From IMG/VR virus record IMGVR_UViG_3300017719_000253, positions 1-21,835 of that record: DNA of 21,835 nucleotides; one strand, given 5' to 3'. A program made the translations under genes and the position numbers. The notes under the pieces are model-generated. The model was not told the origin of the DNA. It did no database searches and saw nothing but the letters and a program-made list of their open reading frames with translations. The DNA is from a virus. This document shows, piece by piece, positions 9,964 through 21,496 of the stretch (position 1 is its first letter; the number at the start of each line of letters is the position of its first letter).

Positions 9964-10489
9964 ACTTCACTCCCATTATAGTTCCTATGATACTGAAGCT
10001 GTTGGTCAGTAGTATACCAAACAGATTACTCCAAGCGTTTCCTAGTATTGTAGTGTCCTTATTAGCTAACATAGCTGTAACATACATAAGGGTAGTTAGT
10101 ATGCCTACACCTATAATAATAACCAGAGCAACCTTTACAATAAGACCTATCAGCTCAAACTGAGTACGCTTTTGCATAAGGTCTAAATCTTCAACAGCTT
10201 CATCCCTTAGTTTTTCAGCTTCACCCTTTTCATTTTGAAGCTCTATTACAAGAGCTTCTTTTACTACAGCAGCTTCTTCCAGTTCTTTGTTCTGAGCCTG
10301 TACTTGCTTAGTAACGTCAAGCCTTTTTCTTCTGGCTAGTCTGTCTTTTGTTTTGCACTCCTCTATATATGTAACGACATCTTTATGTAAAGAATCTTTA
10401 AGAATCTTTACAAAGTTTCCTTCTATGTAAACCTTTTTAGCTTTTGCTTTACGTAAGGCTTCATTTATAGTGTCGTTACCATTTATCAT
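9944..10489 (-). CDS. Coiled-coil membrane protein coupled to the receiver gene
   Basis: This 181-aa protein has three parts: a basic soluble N-terminal portion (1-55, with ALRKAKAKKVYIEGN), a charged heptad-like coiled coil (about 55-110, with KELEEAAVVKEALVIELQNE), and two membrane segments (about 113-140, LIVKVALVIIIGVGILTTLM, and about 150-174). With two helices in the membrane the soluble part and the short C-terminus are probably on the same side. Its ATG overlaps the stop of the receiver gene (ATGA), a sign of translational coupling. It is a candidate output partner of the phage two-component system, or a holin-type protein with an unusual cytoplasmic stalk. No known family was recognised; function is inferred from neighbours only. 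Confidence 0.75.
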   Translation of the reverse strand: MINGNDTINEALRKAKAKKVYIEGNFVKILKDSLHKDVVTYIEECKTKDRLARRKRLDVTKQVQAQNKELEEAAVVKEALVIELQNEKGEAEKLRDEAVEDLDLMQKRTQFELIGLIVKVALVIIIGVGILTTLMYVTAMLANKDTTILGNAWSNLFGILLTNSFSIIGTIMGVKYATEKN

Positions 10490-10923
10490 TTATATATTTT
10501 AAATGGAGCTTTTCGAGACACGTAGCCGTCATAGTCTTTTACAAACTCTTCTAAACGTGGTTCTATTTCATCAGACTTAATAATCCAAAACTGTGCGCCT
10601 ACTTCTTTCGCTTTATCAATTTCTTGGTTATCATCAGAGCTAGATATGATGCCAATAACCACTCCATTTCCATAATCTGTATTTATTTTTCTGATAAGCT
10701 CAATGCCGTCAAAGCTTGAGCCAATAATGTTTAGGTCTACAAAGACACATTCTGGTCTGTCCATTGCTGGGCTTTCTTCAAACCACTTTTTAAAAAGGCG
10801 GTCTGCTTCATCTGAAGAGTTTAGTGCTTGTAGAGATAGTGTCATGTCAAGAAGGCTACACGCATCTTCAAAGACTAAGTGAAATAGGTCTTCGTCATCT
10901 ATTAGTAGTATAGAGTCAATCAT
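10486..10923 (-). CDS. Stand-alone response-regulator receiver (REC) protein
   Basis: This 145-aa protein is a single receiver domain that would accept a phosphoryl group from the neighbouring histidine kinase. The key residues are in place: the acidic pair in LLIDDED (D9, D10), the phospho-acceptor Asp in VFVDLNI (D63), the switch Ser in GIISSSDD (S94 or S95) and the conserved Lys in WIIKSDE (K116). After the REC fold only a short tail remains (about 20 residues, YVSRKAPFKIYK), so there is no DNA-binding or enzymatic output domain and it must act through a protein partner. Both ends overlap neighbours by ATGA junctions: the kinase upstream, the coiled-coil membrane protein downstream. That partner is a natural candidate target. 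The REC assignment is secure; the target is inference. Confidence 0.92.
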   Translation of the reverse strand: MIDSILLIDDEDLFHLVFEDACSLLDMTLSLQALNSSDEADRLFKKWFEESPAMDRPECVFVDLNIIGSSFDGIELIRKINTDYGNGVVIGIISSSDDNQEIDKAKEVGAQFWIIKSDEIEPRLEEFVKDYDGYVSRKAPFKIYK

Positions 10924-12152
10924 AGTTGTATTCTTATTTTTGTTCCTTGTTCTAATTTTTCTGCTGTTATTTTAAATCCGTGTTCTTCAACGATGGCTAC
11001 ACATATATTTAATCCAAGACCGCTTCCATTTTCATTTTGGTCTTCCTTCCTAGCATATGCTTTGGAGTAGTTATCAAAGTTTTCTTGATTCATACCCCTT
11101 CCATTGTCTTCAACTACTAAAATACTTTCGCTTTCCATATAAATAGACACCCTTTTTGTAGAGTTATCATTATATTTTAGTCCGTTTCTAATTAGGTTGT
11201 CTACAGCAGTACAGAACAAAGCCTCGTTGACTTTGAAATCTACCAGTTCTTTTATTTCTACTTGTTTAATGTATGATGTTGACGATAAGTAACTCAACAG
11301 GATATCTCGTAGGTTTACTACGTTCTTTTCTAATTGAGCATCATTCTTTACAAGGTTGGTAAACTCTTTAACACCCTTGTATACTTTCTGTGTATGTATC
11401 AACCCCTCTTGTATCATTTTAAGCGGTGCTGATATTTTTAAATCTGTTATGTTTTGTTGCGTTAATCTGCGTTTTAAGGAGCTTAATCCTCTTGGTATAT
11501 ATGTGTTGATACCAGAATGCATATCGTGTCTTAGAATCTTTGCAGCGTGTTCTAGATACCCATTCTTTTTATTTACCTCAAACTCTATAATCTTCTTGTC
11601 GGTAATATCTGTAGCAATCTTAAGCACACGATAAACTTCTCCGTATGGATTTTTAATAGGGTTGTAGTTTCCGTATATCCAGAACTCCTTGCCCTTTTTA
11701 TCTATACGCAAAAACTCACCGCTACTTACTTTGCCTTTTCTCAGGTTATACCAAAAGGTATTGTATTTATCTTCATCTGTATCACTAGGCATAAACATTC
11801 TGTGATGTTTACCTATAACCTCTTCTTCAGAATAGCCTGTAGTATCACAAAATATACTGTTACAAGAAAGTATAGTTCCGTTTGTGTCAAACTCTACTAG
11901 TGCGTTAGACTTGTTGATTGCCGAAAGTGTATCGTCTATAGACTGAAATTTATACCTAACCTTTCTGATAAACTCTACAGCAACAAAAAAGAAGAAAGGC
12001 ATAAAAGAAACAATAGCTATCCATCCGTACCAAACAGATTTCCTGCTAAGTTCAGCATACTCTATAAGCAATGCGCTTTGATAAGAAAAAAAAGACACCA
12101 TAATAGCAATGGCTATTGCTAAAGATATCTTAGATAGTAACGAGAGTTTCAT
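10920..12152 (-). CDS. Membrane PAS-sensor histidine kinase
   Basis: This 410-aa protein is a complete sensor kinase. Two membrane segments (about 8-30 and 43-63) enclose only a short external loop. A PAS domain (about 75-187) carries the HHRMF motif at 116-120 and ends TDITDKK; this type is familiar from PAS domains of chemoreceptor-like sensors. The dimerisation/phospho-acceptor helix has RHDMHSGIN with H209 as likely phospho-site. The ATPase domain has an N-box (NLIRNGLKYN, 319-328), G1 (VEDNGRGM, 347-354) and G2 (GSGLGLNI, 376-383). It autophosphorylates on His and should pass phosphate to D63 of the next gene's REC protein, whose start overlaps this stop codon by ATGA. The very short periplasmic loop suggests a cytoplasmic or membrane signal. 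A kinase of host type inside a phage late operon is unusual. Divergence of the H-box from the common HExRTPL form is noted. Confidence 0.93.
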   Translation of the reverse strand: MKLSLLSKISLAIAIAIMVSFFSYQSALLIEYAELSRKSVWYGWIAIVSFMPFFFFVAVEFIRKVRYKFQSIDDTLSAINKSNALVEFDTNGTILSCNSIFCDTTGYSEEEVIGKHHRMFMPSDTDEDKYNTFWYNLRKGKVSSGEFLRIDKKGKEFWIYGNYNPIKNPYGEVYRVLKIATDITDKKIIEFEVNKKNGYLEHAAKILRHDMHSGINTYIPRGLSSLKRRLTQQNITDLKISAPLKMIQEGLIHTQKVYKGVKEFTNLVKNDAQLEKNVVNLRDILLSYLSSTSYIKQVEIKELVDFKVNEALFCTAVDNLIRNGLKYNDNSTKRVSIYMESESILVVEDNGRGMNQENFDNYSKAYARKEDQNENGSGLGLNICVAIVEEHGFKITAEKLEQGTKIRIQL

Positions 12153-15527: not shown

Positions 15528-17966
15528 TTAAGACGTTAGCGTATCGACTAGGCTATCACCTTCGTCTTGCAGCTCTCCTCTATTTCCTTTTCTCTGCTCA
15601 ATCATTTTAGACATTTCAACAGCTTGCTTTTTAACACGGTCATCTTTGCGGTCATCCTTTTCAGATTCTAAGCTTTTTCTAAACTGCATATCCTGTTGTT
15701 TCATGCCTGCATTTAATTGAGCTTTACCAGATTCAATCTGACCTTTAAGCCCATATTCTAATTGCAACAACTGAGCATCAGCTTGAGCCTTCGCTTGAAT
15801 TTCAGCAATCTTAGCTTGTGCCTGCATTTGAATCTCCTGCATTCTTCCTTGAGAAGTAGCTTGAGCAGTAGCTTGATTTGCTTGTGCCTGCATCTGAGAG
15901 TTTTGTTGAGCAATCTGCTGATTCATACCCATACGTTTCTTACGTCTTACAATAAGAAGTCTTTCTGCTTGGTCTACATCTTTTAGTTGTCGGACTGCCA
16001 TAGCATCCTCCAAGTCTATCTCTCTCTGAGAAAGTGCTACTTGAATATTTTGCTCTAGGTAGGCTTTCTCTGTTTCGTCCATTTCTGTCTGAATCTTTAC
16101 ACCAAAATTATACATTGGTAAATCCCCAAATGAAGACAACACTTCCATGTTGGTTTTACCAATAGCTCTTTCATAAGCTTCAAACAACACAGATTTGACA
16201 GGTAGTATTTGAAGACATTTTACGATGTCTTCGCATACCCTACTATATAAATAAATAGCAGAGTTTGTAATATCATAAATAGCGTTGTTACCAGCAGCGA
16301 TAGCCTGTTGTCTTACGCCAACTAATTGTTCTCCTTTTGGAGAAGTGCCATCCATAACTTCGTTTATCCCTGTTGTATCACGAATGAGGCGAAGATTATG
16401 ATTATAGATACCGATAAGCTCATTGATATTGCGAATGCTGTTATCCAAAGAACGGACTGGTGGGTTTTGGAAACCACCTTCTGGGTTCTTGCTTCTGTAG
16501 TAGAATACACCTGTTTGTTCATATATATCTTGAATATCTAAAGGCTGTAATTCACCGCCTTTACCTAGCTGCACATTTTCTAATCCTTCAACATCTACAA
16601 TCAAACCGTCTGGCTTTGCTTTAGCAATTGCTTGTTGAAGCTTTAAATGTGAAAGCTGTAATTGGTCTGCAAAACCTATTACAGAAGCTACAAGGGACTT
16701 AGGCATCATTCTGCGTAAGTTGGTAGCTACTACAGAGTAAGACAATCTTGCCCTTGTTAAATCATGAGCGTTTTTAGGCACGTTGGCTTTTTGTCCGTAA
16801 TCATAAATATAATCACAGCCTACAACATAACTACCACCAAACACAGTTTGTACACTCATGTTAAAAGGCTTTCTATCGTAAACAGATTCTTTTGGAGGTG
16901 TGTACTCCATTCCTTTGTAGTAAAAGCCTACATTTCCAAACTTAGAGCCTTTCTCTTCAAACATCATGTCATCTACAGACAGGAACTCAAAGTCCATAAC
17001 TTCAACAATAAACTCATCATATCCGTAAGTAGTACGGTCTTGAGTCTGGTCATACATTCTAGAAGTTAACCTTTCAGAATTGTTGTTGTATTTATTTTTT
17101 ACGCTTTGCGCTATCTTTTCATACTGCTCTTCTGTAAGCTCATCACCAGCGATACGTTTGAGTTCAGAAATGCTAATCCTTTTGATGTGTCCTGCATAAA
17201 CGAGGTCACTAAATGTAGGGTCTTCGGTGTAGCTATGAAAGAAATAGGCTGGGTCGATATACTCTTCTGATATGCCATAGTTTGGGTCATTGTTTCTCTT
17301 AATCACACCTATACCACAAGAAACCAAGTCGTTTACCGCTCTACGGTAAACACGCTGGTCAAAATCGTTCCACTCTAATGTAATATTTGTACCAACCTGC
17401 GCTGCTATTTCAGCTGCAGTTTTAATATTGGTATCCATAAAAATTTCTGCTTCTTCTGGAGTCTCTGGTACTTCTTTTAAGTTCGTACCAGTCTCCACAC
17501 CCATGTCTTGCATTTGAGAAATAAGCTGTCTGTTTTTTACCTCAAACATTTTTTTAGCACGCTCTTTGTCTTTATCGCTTTGTGACAAAGGGTCGATAGC
17601 ACGTACATTTGGATATGGTTTTCTAGATAGAATGTTGTTTACAACAATCTTTACAAACTTAGGGACGATAGGCACTGGAGACCAATCAAGGTTTAGTAAC
17701 GTACCGTCCCCATTATTAGGGTCTAATGAGTTGAGAATCTGTTTATAGATTGAAGTATCTTGTGTCCCGTTTGCATAATCCCGATTAGTTTCAAAATCAC
17801 TATACCTTCTTCTGAAAAGACTCTTTTCATCAGTATAACTACCCCATTGTTTTTCAATAGATTTAGCATACTTCAGTCCATAAGATTTGGATATTTTCTT
17901 AGAGAAAGGTGCAAATGGGTCTGGAAAGCTACCATACTTTCCTTTATTGTTGTCGTTATTGTACAT
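15528..17966 (-). CDS. Portal protein
   Basis: With the ATG at 17966 this is an 812-aa portal, the 12-subunit ring at the head vertex through which DNA is packaged. It follows TerL directly. Near the N-terminus it has RDYANGTQDTSIYKQ and then LNLDWSPVPIVPKFVKIVVN (about 91-110), a pattern I associate with large portals of Bacteroidota podoviruses. The central part is alpha/beta, and the last 130 or so residues form a Gln/Ala-rich coiled coil (QAQAKIAEIQAKAQADAQLL) with a charged tail, like the helical barrel of long portals. The frame is open up to a TTG at 17993, but that codon lies within a TAnnTTTG promoter, so the ATG 27 bases later is preferred. The length is well above the roughly 500 residues of many siphovirus portals. 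Confidence 0.9.
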   Translation of the reverse strand: MYNNDNNKGKYGSFPDPFAPFSKKISKSYGLKYAKSIEKQWGSYTDEKSLFRRRYSDFETNRDYANGTQDTSIYKQILNSLDPNNGDGTLLNLDWSPVPIVPKFVKIVVNNILSRKPYPNVRAIDPLSQSDKDKERAKKMFEVKNRQLISQMQDMGVETGTNLKEVPETPEEAEIFMDTNIKTAAEIAAQVGTNITLEWNDFDQRVYRRAVNDLVSCGIGVIKRNNDPNYGISEEYIDPAYFFHSYTEDPTFSDLVYAGHIKRISISELKRIAGDELTEEQYEKIAQSVKNKYNNNSERLTSRMYDQTQDRTTYGYDEFIVEVMDFEFLSVDDMMFEEKGSKFGNVGFYYKGMEYTPPKESVYDRKPFNMSVQTVFGGSYVVGCDYIYDYGQKANVPKNAHDLTRARLSYSVVATNLRRMMPKSLVASVIGFADQLQLSHLKLQQAIAKAKPDGLIVDVEGLENVQLGKGGELQPLDIQDIYEQTGVFYYRSKNPEGGFQNPPVRSLDNSIRNINELIGIYNHNLRLIRDTTGINEVMDGTSPKGEQLVGVRQQAIAAGNNAIYDITNSAIYLYSRVCEDIVKCLQILPVKSVLFEAYERAIGKTNMEVLSSFGDLPMYNFGVKIQTEMDETEKAYLEQNIQVALSQREIDLEDAMAVRQLKDVDQAERLLIVRRKKRMGMNQQIAQQNSQMQAQANQATAQATSQGRMQEIQMQAQAKIAEIQAKAQADAQLLQLEYGLKGQIESGKAQLNAGMKQQDMQFRKSLESEKDDRKDDRVKKQAVEMSKMIEQRKGNRGELQDEGDSLVDTLTS

Positions 17967-17990
17967 AGCGTTTCGCAGAATACTTCCTCG

Positions 17991-18006
17991 CAAAGATACA
18001 AAATTA
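17991..18006 (-). promoter_or_regulatory. Tandem TAnnTTTG promoter for the portal gene
   Basis: The minus strand reads TAATTTTGTATCTTTG: two adjacent copies of the -7 consensus between the TerL stop (18019) and the portal ATG (17966). The nearer copy ends 24 bases before that ATG. It argues against the TTG at 17993 as a start codon. Confidence 0.7.
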
Positions 18007-18018
18007 AAACACTGCCTA

Positions 18019-20145
18019 TTAGCGTCTTATTTCCTTGTATCTACGGAAAAACTTTTTGTCATTGAACTCTGATTCTTTCTTTATTGTTTTTGTTTTTTGA
18101 GCACCTAACAGTGCCAATCCACTTGATATAGTTAAATCGTATTTAGTACGATTATCTATCTTATATCCAATCCAGTCTTCAAGGGTTCTGTCAAAATACA
18201 TTTTACCCATATCCCCTGTCTGAGTATTTATACCTACGTGTTCTTCTACAAAAGCTTCAATAGCCTGTGCGTGAGACTGTATAACGTCTACAGAGTTTGA
18301 TGGTATACCACGAGTCTTTGTATTAGAAGCTGCATTAGGAGACTTCAAATGGTCGGGTCTTTTCATCACGTACTCTTCGTATCCCCTTGATTCGAAATAC
18401 CTTACAATACCATACTTGTTGTTTTCAATAAGCAGTGGGTAGCCATAGAATACAGCAGCAAGCAGCACATCCTCGTAAAAGATACGTGCCAAAGGTGGAC
18501 GAGATGCATACTCAGCAACAAACATATTTGCTGGTGCAGCCATGTTGAATTTATTATAAAGATGGCAAGCTCCTTTTGAGCCTCTATTGTCTGTCGTTGA
18601 ATCTAAGTCATAGCTATCGACACCACCTACTCCTATATGGTCGTTTGCTGGATGCTTTTTGCCATATATTATTTTGTATTTGTTTCTGTCTTCTGGCTTA
18701 GGCATCCAAGAAACATGCCACCTACCCTCTTTATTTGGATTAAAAACAACCTCTTTGTCGTTGCCTCCCTCTTTCCAGCTAAAGTTACCACGAACTACGG
18801 GGTTAGGAAACAACTCTTGATTGTGTTCTATTTGCTCGTATATCCTTCCAATATTAAAAGTAGACCCAGTAATACTATCACGCATAGCCTCATCAATAGT
18901 AAAAGGAAACTGTCTAACCTGCTCATTTAATTCTCTGGCATCGTGCTTTAAAGCATCCCTTTCATTTTTAAGATAAGTCTTTGCACCAATGTCCACATAC
19001 TCCCCGTCAATCGTTTTAACTGGTGTTTCTGGGTCTTCAATAATTGGATTACCATACTCGTCAAAGAAACCTTCGAGAGCTTCGTAGGATGGTATAAATA
19101 ATCTATAAAGTCCAGTTTTTGTTCTTCCGTTTGCATTTCTGTCATCTGGGTCTGAGTCTCTCCAGAGTTGTTTATATTGTTTTCCACCTTTATCCATTGG
19201 GTTTACAGTAGAACCCACCAAGGCTTTGCCTACAATTCTTCTACCTACAATTAAACAGGTTCTTTCAATACGCCATGCCTCACGAATGTCTGTAGGTCTT
19301 TCCCACTTCCCTGCCTCATCAAGATACAGGATATGAAGTTTCTCACCATCGTATGCGTTATTGGTAGTATTCTTCCAATTAATAATCGTGTTAAGAGCTT
19401 CTCCTTTATTTGCTGTTTTGTTGTTCTTGGTAATACGCTTAGAGGGTTCACGAAATGCCAGCTCCATACGAGGGTTAGTTGTACCATCTTGGATTGGTTT
19501 AAAGAAAAAAGGAAGTGACCTGTACATAGGAACTACCTTCTTCATGAAGATATTTTCTTGTGCATCCTTACCCGTCTTAGACTGAATACCCAACAGCTTT
19601 TCTTTTACCTGTGTACCTTCGTCTACAAGTATTGCTGATGATATATTGGTGTATCCAGAACGTCTACATTTAACGTAGTTTTGACCCATAGAGCGTGGGT
19701 CTACCTCACACGCAGCAAAGTGAACAAACAGCCTCCTCTGAAACTCTAAATAATACCCGTAACCAATGTCTAGCTTCTCCCATTGGAGCATCATATAGTG
19801 TCTGCCTGTAATGTAGACAGGCTCACCATTATTGTAAAACCAAAGACCGTTACGCCTCCTTTCAAACTCTTTTTCGATGTACGGAGAAAAACGCTTTTTG
19901 AATTCGGAAGGCATTTCGTACCACTCATCCATAGAGCGAATCCTCTGCAATTCCTCTGGCACAGGAAGTCGTCTCCACATTTGCAGATGTTGCTTCCTGT
20001 CATTAAAGAGGATTTGTTTTTTAGGGGGTAGTTTGGGAAGCTGAATATTAATCCCACCAATTTCGGTAACCTCCCCACCTGTATCGTTGGGACATATATT
20101 GATAACGTAGTTATCATAGTCCTCAACCTTTTTAAGACCTGCCAT
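18019..20145 (-). CDS. terL: Terminase large subunit (packaging ATPase-nuclease)
   Basis: This 708-aa protein is the motor that pumps DNA into the head. The N-terminal ATPase shows a divergent P-loop (KCRRSGYTN, 159-167), Walker B ILYLDEAG (272-279, D276 and E277) and coupling motif LVGSTVNP (309-316). The C-terminal RNase-H-like nuclease has GVGGVDSYDLDST (505-517, D510 as a likely metal ligand), LLIENNKYG (571-579, with E574) and a late acidic stretch at FDRTLEDWIGYKIDN (651-665). The gene lies between a candidate TerS and the portal, the standard packaging order. The Walker A departs from GxxxxGK[ST], as happens in some phage terminases. Several open frames on both strands inside it are shadows. 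No frameshift or truncation; the ATG at 20145 fits the gap after the upstream gene. Confidence 0.93.
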   Translation of the reverse strand: MAGLKKVEDYDNYVINICPNDTGGEVTEIGGINIQLPKLPPKKQILFNDRKQHLQMWRRLPVPEELQRIRSMDEWYEMPSEFKKRFSPYIEKEFERRRNGLWFYNNGEPVYITGRHYMMLQWEKLDIGYGYYLEFQRRLFVHFAACEVDPRSMGQNYVKCRRSGYTNISSAILVDEGTQVKEKLLGIQSKTGKDAQENIFMKKVVPMYRSLPFFFKPIQDGTTNPRMELAFREPSKRITKNNKTANKGEALNTIINWKNTTNNAYDGEKLHILYLDEAGKWERPTDIREAWRIERTCLIVGRRIVGKALVGSTVNPMDKGGKQYKQLWRDSDPDDRNANGRTKTGLYRLFIPSYEALEGFFDEYGNPIIEDPETPVKTIDGEYVDIGAKTYLKNERDALKHDARELNEQVRQFPFTIDEAMRDSITGSTFNIGRIYEQIEHNQELFPNPVVRGNFSWKEGGNDKEVVFNPNKEGRWHVSWMPKPEDRNKYKIIYGKKHPANDHIGVGGVDSYDLDSTTDNRGSKGACHLYNKFNMAAPANMFVAEYASRPPLARIFYEDVLLAAVFYGYPLLIENNKYGIVRYFESRGYEEYVMKRPDHLKSPNAASNTKTRGIPSNSVDVIQSHAQAIEAFVEEHVGINTQTGDMGKMYFDRTLEDWIGYKIDNRTKYDLTISSGLALLGAQKTKTIKKESEFNDKKFFRRYKEIRR

Positions 20146-20182
20146 TTCATTTAATTAATAATCCCAATATATAAATACTTGA

Positions 20183-20476
20183 CTACTTTGAGAATCGCTC
20201 TGCGAATCCTCCAGAGTAGTCTTTGTCTTCTTCAATTCCTCCTGTGTCTTTGATTTCTTTGACCATTTGCTCAAGTCGCTGGTATTCGATGAGGAGTTCT
20301 TTGGCATCTGTTGCTGTTTGTTTAATACTCTGTAGTTCAGCCTTTCGCTGAGAGCCAGAAAGCTCTGCATCTACAGGCTTTCTGATTTCATCAATCATAT
20401 TGTTGATTGCAACCTCCATAGAGGAAAGCAATCTTGTTGATGCTTCTATTGTGGTAAATTTAGTCTTTCTTGGCAT
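20183..20476 (-). CDS. Small helical protein, candidate small terminase subunit
   Basis: This 97-aa protein is almost all helix, opening MPRKTKFTTIEASTRLLSSM, with a central QRKAELQSIKQTATDAKELL, EYQRLEQMVKEIKD and a charged tail, EEDKDYSGGFAERFSK. It lies immediately before TerL, the place usual for the DNA-recognition subunit TerS, and it has a basic N-terminus and an oligomer-like coiled coil. It has no clear helix-turn-helix, and TerS proteins are poorly conserved, so the call rests on position. Its ATG overlaps the end of the co-chaperonin gene (20460-20476), suggesting coupling. An alternative is a co-chaperonin partner or an unrelated head factor. Confidence 0.5.
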   Translation of the reverse strand: MPRKTKFTTIEASTRLLSSMEVAINNMIDEIRKPVDAELSGSQRKAELQSIKQTATDAKELLIEYQRLEQMVKEIKDTGGIEEDKDYSGGFAERFSK

Positions 20477-21035
20477 ACACTAATTCTGTTATTCTCATTC
20501 TATATACCGTGTCACCATTAGCTAGCTCCATCTTATAGTCTGAATTCTTTGTGTAGCCCACCACATCACCAGTGCTCGCTCCAATCCACTCTGAATCTTC
20601 TGGCAGAATAAGTAACTCTCCTTCGTCTTTAGGTTCTTTTTTGAGTTCAAGAACAATACCAGAATCACTTGTTTTTTCTTCTGGCTCAACGGCTGGTGCA
20701 ACAAAACACCAATCCCCAAGCATATCAATATCACCAGCTTCATTTTCAATTGCGATGGCGTGATTTTCATATCCTCCATTGGGGTCATAATCAACCAAGT
20801 ATAAATTATCTCCAATGTCATAACGCTGTTCTAATACCACATGATGGTGAAAATACAATATCTGACCTATTGCGGCTTTTTTAAATCCAACAGGCGCAGA
20901 GACAATATGACCATAATTAAACCTATGCTCAAACTCACTAAATTTATTAACTAGCTTTATCGTAGAGCCACCTAATTTTATTTCATCCTTAAACTTGTTA
21001 GGGATGTTGACTATAAATTGACGTAATGGTTTCAT
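20460..21035 (-). CDS. Double GroES-like co-chaperonin
   Basis: This 191-aa protein looks like two fused GroES/Cpn10-type domains. The second (about 108-191) is clearer: WCFVAPAVEPEEKTSDSGIV places SGIVL (125-129), the mobile-loop tripeptide IVL that GroES uses to touch GroEL. DEGELLILP, TGDVVGYTKN and a final RITELVYAK follow, matching the usual end of Cpn10. The first domain (about 1-105) has FIVNIP, a loop DEIKLGGSTIKLV, a YGHIVSAP strand and GQILYFHHHV in similar order. A GroES domain is about 97 residues, so the length fits two. Known precedent: phage T4 replaces GroES with gp31 to fold its capsid protein. The position ahead of the packaging and head genes fits a capsid-folding role with host GroEL; that role is inference. 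Confidence 0.75.
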   Translation of the reverse strand: MKPLRQFIVNIPNKFKDEIKLGGSTIKLVNKFSEFEHRFNYGHIVSAPVGFKKAAIGQILYFHHHVVLEQRYDIGDNLYLVDYDPNGGYENHAIAIENEAGDIDMLGDWCFVAPAVEPEEKTSDSGIVLELKKEPKDEGELLILPEDSEWIGASTGDVVGYTKNSDYKMELANGDTVYRMRITELVYAKKD

Positions 21036-21177: not shown

Positions 21178-21408
21178 TTAGTCAAATTTTAAATCGTATT
21201 CAAGAATACAAGGCATATTGTCTATTGCTTTCCAAAGCATAGTGCCTTCATCGTTTTCAGTGTAAATAAGATATCTGATTGACGAATATTTGTAGAGATA
21301 CGATTCGTCTTGCGTAATGGCAACTACTTTGCCTGCACCTGCTCGCATACCGATATAGTATGCCATAGCATCTTTGGGGTCTCGCCCAATAACTATTTTC
21401 CTAATCAT
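21178..21408 (-). CDS. 76-aa hypothetical protein
   Basis: This 76-aa protein opens MIRKIVIGRDPKDAMAYYIG and contains KVVAITQDESYLYKYSS and an acidic C-terminal part ending EYDLKFD. It is mixed alpha/beta with no membrane segment or known motif. It starts 16 bases after the 3' end of the tRNA and abuts the 46-aa gene. I do not recognise it. The GRDPKD and GxGKVVAI stretches recall small phage regulators, but too weakly for a call. Confidence 0.7.
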   Translation of the reverse strand: MIRKIVIGRDPKDAMAYYIGMRAGAGKVVAITQDESYLYKYSSIRYLIYTENDEGTMLWKAIDNMPCILEYDLKFD

Positions 21409-21423
21409 TGTTATTTAATTTAG

Positions 21424-21496
21424 TACACCAGATAGGAGTCGAACCTATAACCGACAGCTTAGAAGGCTGTTGCTCTATCCATTGAGCTACTGATGC
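21424..21496 (-). tRNA. tRNA-Arg (anticodon UCU)
   Basis: The 73-base minus-strand sequence folds as a full cloverleaf: acceptor GCATCAG/CTGGTGT (7 pairs, two G-U), D stem GCTC/GAGC, anticodon stem ACAGC/GCTGT around loop CTTCTAA, and T stem ATAGG/CCTAT around TTCGACT. The anticodon is TCT, so it reads AGA and AGG. The discriminator is A and CCA is not encoded. It lies between two protein genes on the same strand. AGA is a common Arg codon in this window, so the tRNA probably supports phage translation. Confidence 0.95.

Follow-up and report, generated by a model that had tools for sequence, protein, structure and literature searches.

A candidate two-domain co-chaperonin gene with conserved overlapping reading frames in the packaging region of a putative Bacteroidetes phage

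The window analyzed here, meaning the whole 21.8 kb stretch of a virus fragment, carries on its minus strand a gene for a protein of 191 residues that runs from an ATG at 21035 to a stop codon at 20460. An initial annotation of this DNA had placed a reading frame of that length upstream of the packaging genes, and this is indeed its position: a 97-aa ORF, the terminase and the portal gene come next. The features of interest are as follows.

21178..21408, minus strand: small ORF (76 aa) that immediately precedes the co-chaperonin gene
20460..21035, minus strand: candidate tandem co-chaperonin gene, stop codon included, 191 aa with two Cpn10-like domains
20736..21035, minus strand: domain 1 (D1), residues 1-100, predicted Cpn10-like barrel whose mobile-loop region is changed and which contains a conserved His-His
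20949..20987, minus strand: D1 loop DEIKLGGSTIKLV, residues 17-29, with I26 and L28 kept and the preceding glycine lost
20463..20735, minus strand: domain 2 (D2), residues 101-191 (about), predicted Cpn10-like barrel whose mobile loop is canonical
20649..20663, minus strand: GroEL-contact motif SGIVL of D2, residues 125-129, strongly conserved in the clade
20522..20821, minus strand: overlapping ORF of 99 aa in the +1 frame, within the second half of the co-chaperonin gene, an orphan with a hydrophobic stretch
20183..20476, minus strand: conserved ORF of 97 aa between co-chaperonin and terminase, overlapping the end of the co-chaperonin gene by 17 nt
19791..20150, minus strand: +1-frame ORF of 119 aa whose start lies 5 nt ahead of the terminase ATG
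18019..20145, minus strand: terminase large subunit (PHROG 6681, E 3.9e-199)
15528..17993, minus strand: portal protein (PHROG 6547, E 1.4e-194)

The PHROG matches put the identity of the terminase and the portal protein beyond doubt, and the 97-aa ORF is possibly small-terminase-like. ORFs comparable in size to the latter occupy the same position in ctfjg026, phi18:3 and L194. In elemoA, Panino and phi38:1 (noted for L027, L028 and L030) it is missing, and the terminase is ~170 residues longer at its N-terminus. That the 97-aa ORF has become fused to the N-terminus of the terminase in elemo, Panino and phi38:1 was considered and set aside, the profile comparison being too weak (prob 5-8). On the other side of the co-chaperonin gene, short ORFs like that at 21178..21408 stand at the equivalent place in ctfjg026, elemoA, Panino and phi38:1, and a tRNA-Arg (TCT) gene at 21423-21496 (minus strand) resembles the tRNA-Arg of crAss-like and other phages. 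The window also encodes a sensor histidine kinase with a PAS domain (10486-12152, minus strand; HATPase_c E 3e-15) beside a response-regulator domain, both lying within the phage structural gene cluster; ORFs comparable in size to those of this region are found near 28.6-30.3 kb in the related contig G002.

By terminase identity, the closest relative of the window is ctfjg026 (45%), followed by the Flavobacterium elemo phages and Maribacter phage Panino (39% each) and the Cellulophaga phages (35-37%). Given this kinship and a 44% co-chaperonin relative, with identical gene order, on a contig assigned to a Bacteroidetes MAG, a host among the Bacteroidetes is likely for the window phage. Relatives of the co-chaperonin in IMG/VR reach 64-82% identity, and dN/dS for the gene against L001 is ~0.15, indicating purifying selection. 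More distant orthologues occupy the position immediately ahead of the terminase in phages of Cellulophaga, Flavobacterium and Maribacter. Several of them are already annotated as co-chaperonin GroES (phi18:3 gp096, phi38:1 gp089, Calle_1 gp013, elemoA gp33 and Panino CDS0088), and that of ctfjg026 (UOF82516) is annotated as a hypothetical protein. The Panino paper reports GroEL and GroES homologues of the phage (PMC11590407). The tandem two-Cpn10 design goes unmentioned in the orthologue annotations and the literature searched, which likewise gave no description of a tandem phage GroES.

The initial annotation had read the protein as a fused double GroES-like co-chaperonin, and profile and fold now bear this out, strongly for D2 and moderately for D1. 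PHROG 13932 ('co-chaperonin GroES') aligns with residues 1-187 over profile positions 1-197 of 200 (E 2.7e-20), and D2 also matches PHROG 3188, of the same name (E 3.1e-5). Pfam and NCBIfam leave the window protein unmatched. Its clade members L002 and L012 score 17.7 and 19.3 bits, both below the Pfam Cpn10 cut-off of 21.1 bits, which phi18:3, phi38:1 and Calle_1 exceed in their second half only. With phmmer, the window protein gave chance matches only among the PDB chains (acyl carrier proteins at E 0.15).

Each half was also compared with a single-GroES profile of eight sequences, seven from related phages plus that of E. coli GroES. In hhalign, D2 matched this profile at prob 96.4-96.8 and D1 at prob 69-83 over all families and the window clade (top 83). 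Since E-values of single-pair hhalign runs are not equivalent to database E-values, reversed controls were used, and these stayed at or below prob 0.4 (0.3 for D1 at prob 83). When individual proteins were searched, i-E values below 0.01 were obtained for D1 in phi18:3 and 13 of 14 elemo-type proteins, and for D2 in phi18:3, in eight of the 14 elemo types and in 34 of the 36 proteins of the window clade; the best reversed control was 0.27. In phi18:3, the profile matches each half independently. The window protein's own D1 is weak by sequence (i-E 0.22), and the window-clade D1 matches the elemo D1 at prob 96.8 across 107 columns. Direct profile comparison of D1 with D2, the shared segment excluded, revealed no similarity. 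Support for D1 comes chiefly from its fold and from orthologues that match in both halves.

The AlphaFold model of the full protein, built on a 56-sequence alignment, has a pLDDT of 83.7 and a pTM of 0.79. Its best Foldseek match, over the full length, is 7ekq_R (E 1.6e-5), named in the PDB as a Cpn20 co-chaperonin subunit of Chlamydomonas, and VIA superposes the model on the same chain with a Z of 10.6 over 166 residues. The 16 best VIA rows for the whole model are all Cpn10-type chains, with residues ~102-190 (D2) reaching Z 7.5-9.4. D1 modelled alone (pLDDT 77.6) likewise has Cpn10 or co-chaperonin chains in all of its 15 best rows (Z 5.5-7.3), after which GroES-like alcohol dehydrogenase domains follow. 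A Cpn10 barrel is therefore predicted for both halves, as the initial annotation had anticipated, and on these models we assign the fold to D2 with high confidence and to D1 with moderate confidence.

The mobile loops of the two domains are of particular interest. The motif SGIVL, which had been picked out in the second domain at the outset, is well kept in the window clade: among 29 distinct proteins, G126 is invariant (100%), S125, I127 and L129 are each present in 96%, and the consensus of the loop is S-G-I-[IVL]-[LI]. The motif reads SGIII in L012 and EGIII in L194; since both genes lack the overlapping ORF described below, it is not a by-product of that overlap. In D1 of the same 29 proteins, position 26 is mostly L, otherwise I, L28 is found in 100%, and there is no glycine. 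GroES requires hydrophobic residues at I25 and L27 (PMC5575113), with which positions 26 and 28 of D1 are in step. Both GroEL-contact positions are hydrophobic in D2 (I127, L129) as well as in D1 (26, L28), and because these two positions are kept, the D1 loop may still bind GroEL. The proposal that the loops are unequal therefore stands in part: the D1 glycine is gone and the loop is changed, but both hydrophobic contact residues are retained. The elemo types carry the canonical motif in D1 (G-L-[IV]-L, 14/14) and a shortened loop in D2, and in the ctfjg026 types the better loop is likewise in D1. The idea of a reciprocal loss of loops between the domains was toned down, since D1 of the window clade keeps its contact positions and phi38:1 fits the scheme poorly.

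The long roof insert of E. coli GroES is absent from the phage single GroES set in the alignment, and the roof stretches of both D1 and D2, counted by eye, are short compared with E. coli GroES. Such short roof loops in both domains would give the lid a more open roof. D1 also contains a His-His pair at residues 63-64 (20841-20849, minus strand), which 90% or more of the 56-sequence family retain. Such a pair is not known to have a role in GroES; a metal or partner site is possible.

Many of the related phages encode chaperonins of their own. GroEL is present in eight of 14 related records (ctfjg026, elemoA, Panino, phi38:1, Calle_1 and three IMG/VR contigs), all eight of which also have a separate single GroES. 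In phi18:3 and G008, the tandem gene is accompanied by a single GroES, and a search of these two for GroEL gave no match. Tandem gene and separate single GroES therefore occur together in ten related genomes. A three-part phage chaperonin set, consisting of GroEL and/or single GroES in addition to the tandem, can be recognized in most relatives (loci L025, L027, L028 and L030; genomes W01-W06 and G005-G008). In the window clade, neither GroEL nor a separate GroES was found in the two contigs G001 (61.8 kb) and G002 (65.0 kb), where the only convincing matches to the single-GroES profile are the tandem genes themselves. Both are IMG/VR contigs classed as linear, and they share structural as well as replication genes with the circular genome of ctfjg026 and are apparently near-complete. 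Since GroEL and a separate GroES are missing from both, the window clade probably relies on the GroEL of its host.

A further protein appears to be encoded, in another reading frame, by the D2 half of the gene. In every distinct gene of the window clade except L012, the +1 frame is open for 97-112 codons. Over codons 86-165 in 23 relatives, it contains four stops, all of them in L012, where codon usage predicts 113.9, a depletion of about 25-fold in counts that are not independent across related sequences; since synonymous divergence across the clade is large, this avoidance probably does not go back to a single chance event. The other four frames of these codons hold 0.75-1.49 of the expected stops. 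Synonymous sites have diverged strongly in the D1 half but little in the D2 half, amino-acid divergence being similar in the two. With amino-acid type corrected for and the terminase as comparison, observed over expected synonymous change is ~1.0-1.2 in codons 1-70 and ~0.5 in codons 101-160, the latter lower than in any 60-codon stretch of the terminase (minimum 0.58). The region of low values corresponds to ORF 20522-20821. Recombination was rejected as its cause, since amino-acid divergence is not lowered and stops are strongly avoided in one frame only, and an antisense ORF over the same stretch was rejected since antisense stops are not strongly depleted. The start of the ORF is not fixed across the clade, its peptide has no match in Pfam or PHROGs, and that peptide is no more hydrophobic than codon-shuffled controls (p 0.12). 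Relatives outside the window clade have the co-chaperonin gene without the +1 ORF; its absence from the related phage groups examined suggests that it was overprinted within the window clade.

A second overlap of this kind is seen at the start of the terminase gene. The ATG of ORF 19791-20150 is kept in 21 of 23 relatives, and over terminase codons 1-95 these relatives contain two +1 stops, both in L003, against 125.5 expected, a depletion of about 60-fold. Synonymous change in this stretch is 0.60-0.73 of expectation. Stops are few in one antisense frame of the same codons as well (0.14 of expectation), which probably reflects that avoidance of TTA and CTA serves both frames. Like the first, the peptide has no match in Pfam or PHROGs. 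Toward its end, the 97-aa gene has another +1-frame ORF (20155-20370, minus strand), open over the last third in 22 of 23 relatives and with mild synonymous suppression only (0.79). In both larger overlaps, a second frame is conserved open, stops are avoided beyond what codon usage predicts, and synonymous changes in the main frame are suppressed. From these sequence comparisons we read ORFs 20522-20821 and 19791-20150 as two putative overprinted genes, so far unannotated.

Based on its predicted fold and the genes around it, we propose that the tandem protein is a chain of two Cpn10 domains built like chloroplast Cpn20, and that it forms a lid on host GroEL which helps virion or packaging proteins to fold. 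We consider this account quite probable as a whole; a co-chaperonin function as such is plausible. D1 and D2 would be neighbors in a single lid ring built from some seven or eight domains, in which the D2 loops would bind host GroEL, perhaps with help from the D1 loops, and the lid would assist the folding of late virion or packaging proteins. The location of the gene among late genes suggests head or packaging proteins as clients. A seven-fold ring in two layers, which the initial annotation had entertained, was not borne out: the model superposes on Cpn20 and its linker is only a few residues long, which favors a single-layer arrangement. Chloroplasts and apicoplasts have tandem co-chaperonins, and in Cpn20 the two domains are neighbors within one ring. 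Cpn20 lids meet the seven-fold chaperonin as eight domains, one of them unbound, or together with single-domain subunits (PMC5780408). Cpn20-type tandems can work with GroEL (PMC3542282, PMC5780408), and the apicoplast Cpn20 of the malaria parasite can replace GroES in E. coli (PMC3542282). A lid engineered from seven modules can, to some extent, bear the weakening of two or three of its loops (PMC5575113), so that unequal loops are compatible with a lid. Joined to the overprinting, the combined reading appears moderately probable: the co-chaperonin gene would be dual-coding, with a +1-frame protein of ~100 aa that spans most of D2 and was overprinted within the clade, a ~119-aa protein would be encoded at the terminase start, and the two-domain lid would act on host GroEL in phages without a chaperonin of their own.

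The tandem chain might instead enter a mixed lid with a single GroES, that of the phage itself in most relatives and that of the host in the window clade. Seven domains would result, for example, from three tandem chains and one single-domain subunit, as in the CPN11/20/23 complex of Chlamydomonas. Seven-domain hetero-oligomers of Cpn10 and Cpn20 are documented (PMC5780408, PMC3542282), a complex of CPN11, CPN20 and CPN23 has been observed by cryo-EM (PMC8889267), and the ten genomes with both kinds of gene are what such a partnership would call for. In the window clade, however, there is no phage single GroES, so that the partner would have to come from the host, and we regard a mixed lid as unlikely. 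A role of the family other than that of a lid is also possible, because relatives that have GroEL and GroES keep the tandem and two groups have lost its D2 motif. The protein could then be a packaging or assembly factor, its Cpn10 fold acting outside the GroEL cycle and directly on terminase, portal or head proteins. Such a role would fit the constancy of its position ahead of the terminase across several phage groups, some with a full GroEL/GroES pair elsewhere, and also the His-His conserved in D1; among the groups that encode GroEL and a single GroES themselves, two have a shortened D2 loop without the motif, with the tandem still beside the terminase. The window clade, however, retains the canonical GroEL-contact motif and has no other recognizable GroES, and in phi18:3 several structural proteins carry MS/MS proteomics notes while the tandem gene carries none, so that its product is probably no major part of the virion; we consider a packaging factor rather unlikely. 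That the halves merely share a common small barrel with Cpn10, without any link to chaperonins, is very improbable given the profile and PHROG evidence. In favor of this reading, the Z values of D1 (5.5-7.3) are of the intermediate size for which the tool advises caution, but the best rows (15 for D1, 16 for the whole model) are Cpn10-type and the profile matches beat their reversed controls.

The Cpn20-like design predicted here belongs to an abundant phage group, with 540 relatives of one subtype in IMG/VR, and often stands alongside GroEL and a single GroES encoded by the phage itself. This provides a bacterial system for asking how lids of paired domains fit a seven-fold chaperonin, and phage tandem lids offer a way to ask how many active loops a lid needs. 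If the overlapping frames are true genes, the packaging region would contain two overprinted genes, for which the comparative evidence is strong enough to justify proteomics.

The same-locus orthologues of phi18:3, phi38:1, Calle_1, elemoA, Panino and ctfjg026 resemble the window protein in length (~180-200 aa) and pre-terminase position, and can be aligned over the whole of it. They differ in sequence, with just 19-26% identity, in that most of these phages have GroEL and a single GroES besides, and in that the conserved +1 overlapping ORF is absent from all of these groups. Single-domain GroES (PF00166) has the fold and the D2 mobile-loop motif in common with the window protein, which in turn has two domains and no Pfam hit. 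The initial annotation had named T4 gp31 as the known parallel. This holds in so far as gp31 is a phage-encoded Cpn10 fold that VIA matches to both domains, with a Z of 8.5 to D2 (2cgt_O) and 5.5 to D1 (1g31_A); gp31, however, has one domain where the phage tandem has two, it was not found with the window protein by phmmer, the orthologues were already named GroES, and Cpn20 is the nearest tandem. Cpn20 has a mobile loop and a roof in both domains (PMC3542282), whereas the phage protein has short roofs and a changed D1 loop, and sequence similarity between the two is marginal. Since roof and mobile loop are not retained in both domains, we do not file the phage protein as a member of Cpn20, only as a protein of like build that may also work in a like manner. 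Nevertheless, Cpn20 of chloroplasts and apicoplasts (PDB 7ekq) likewise consists of two Cpn10 barrels head to tail, in a similar domain placement.
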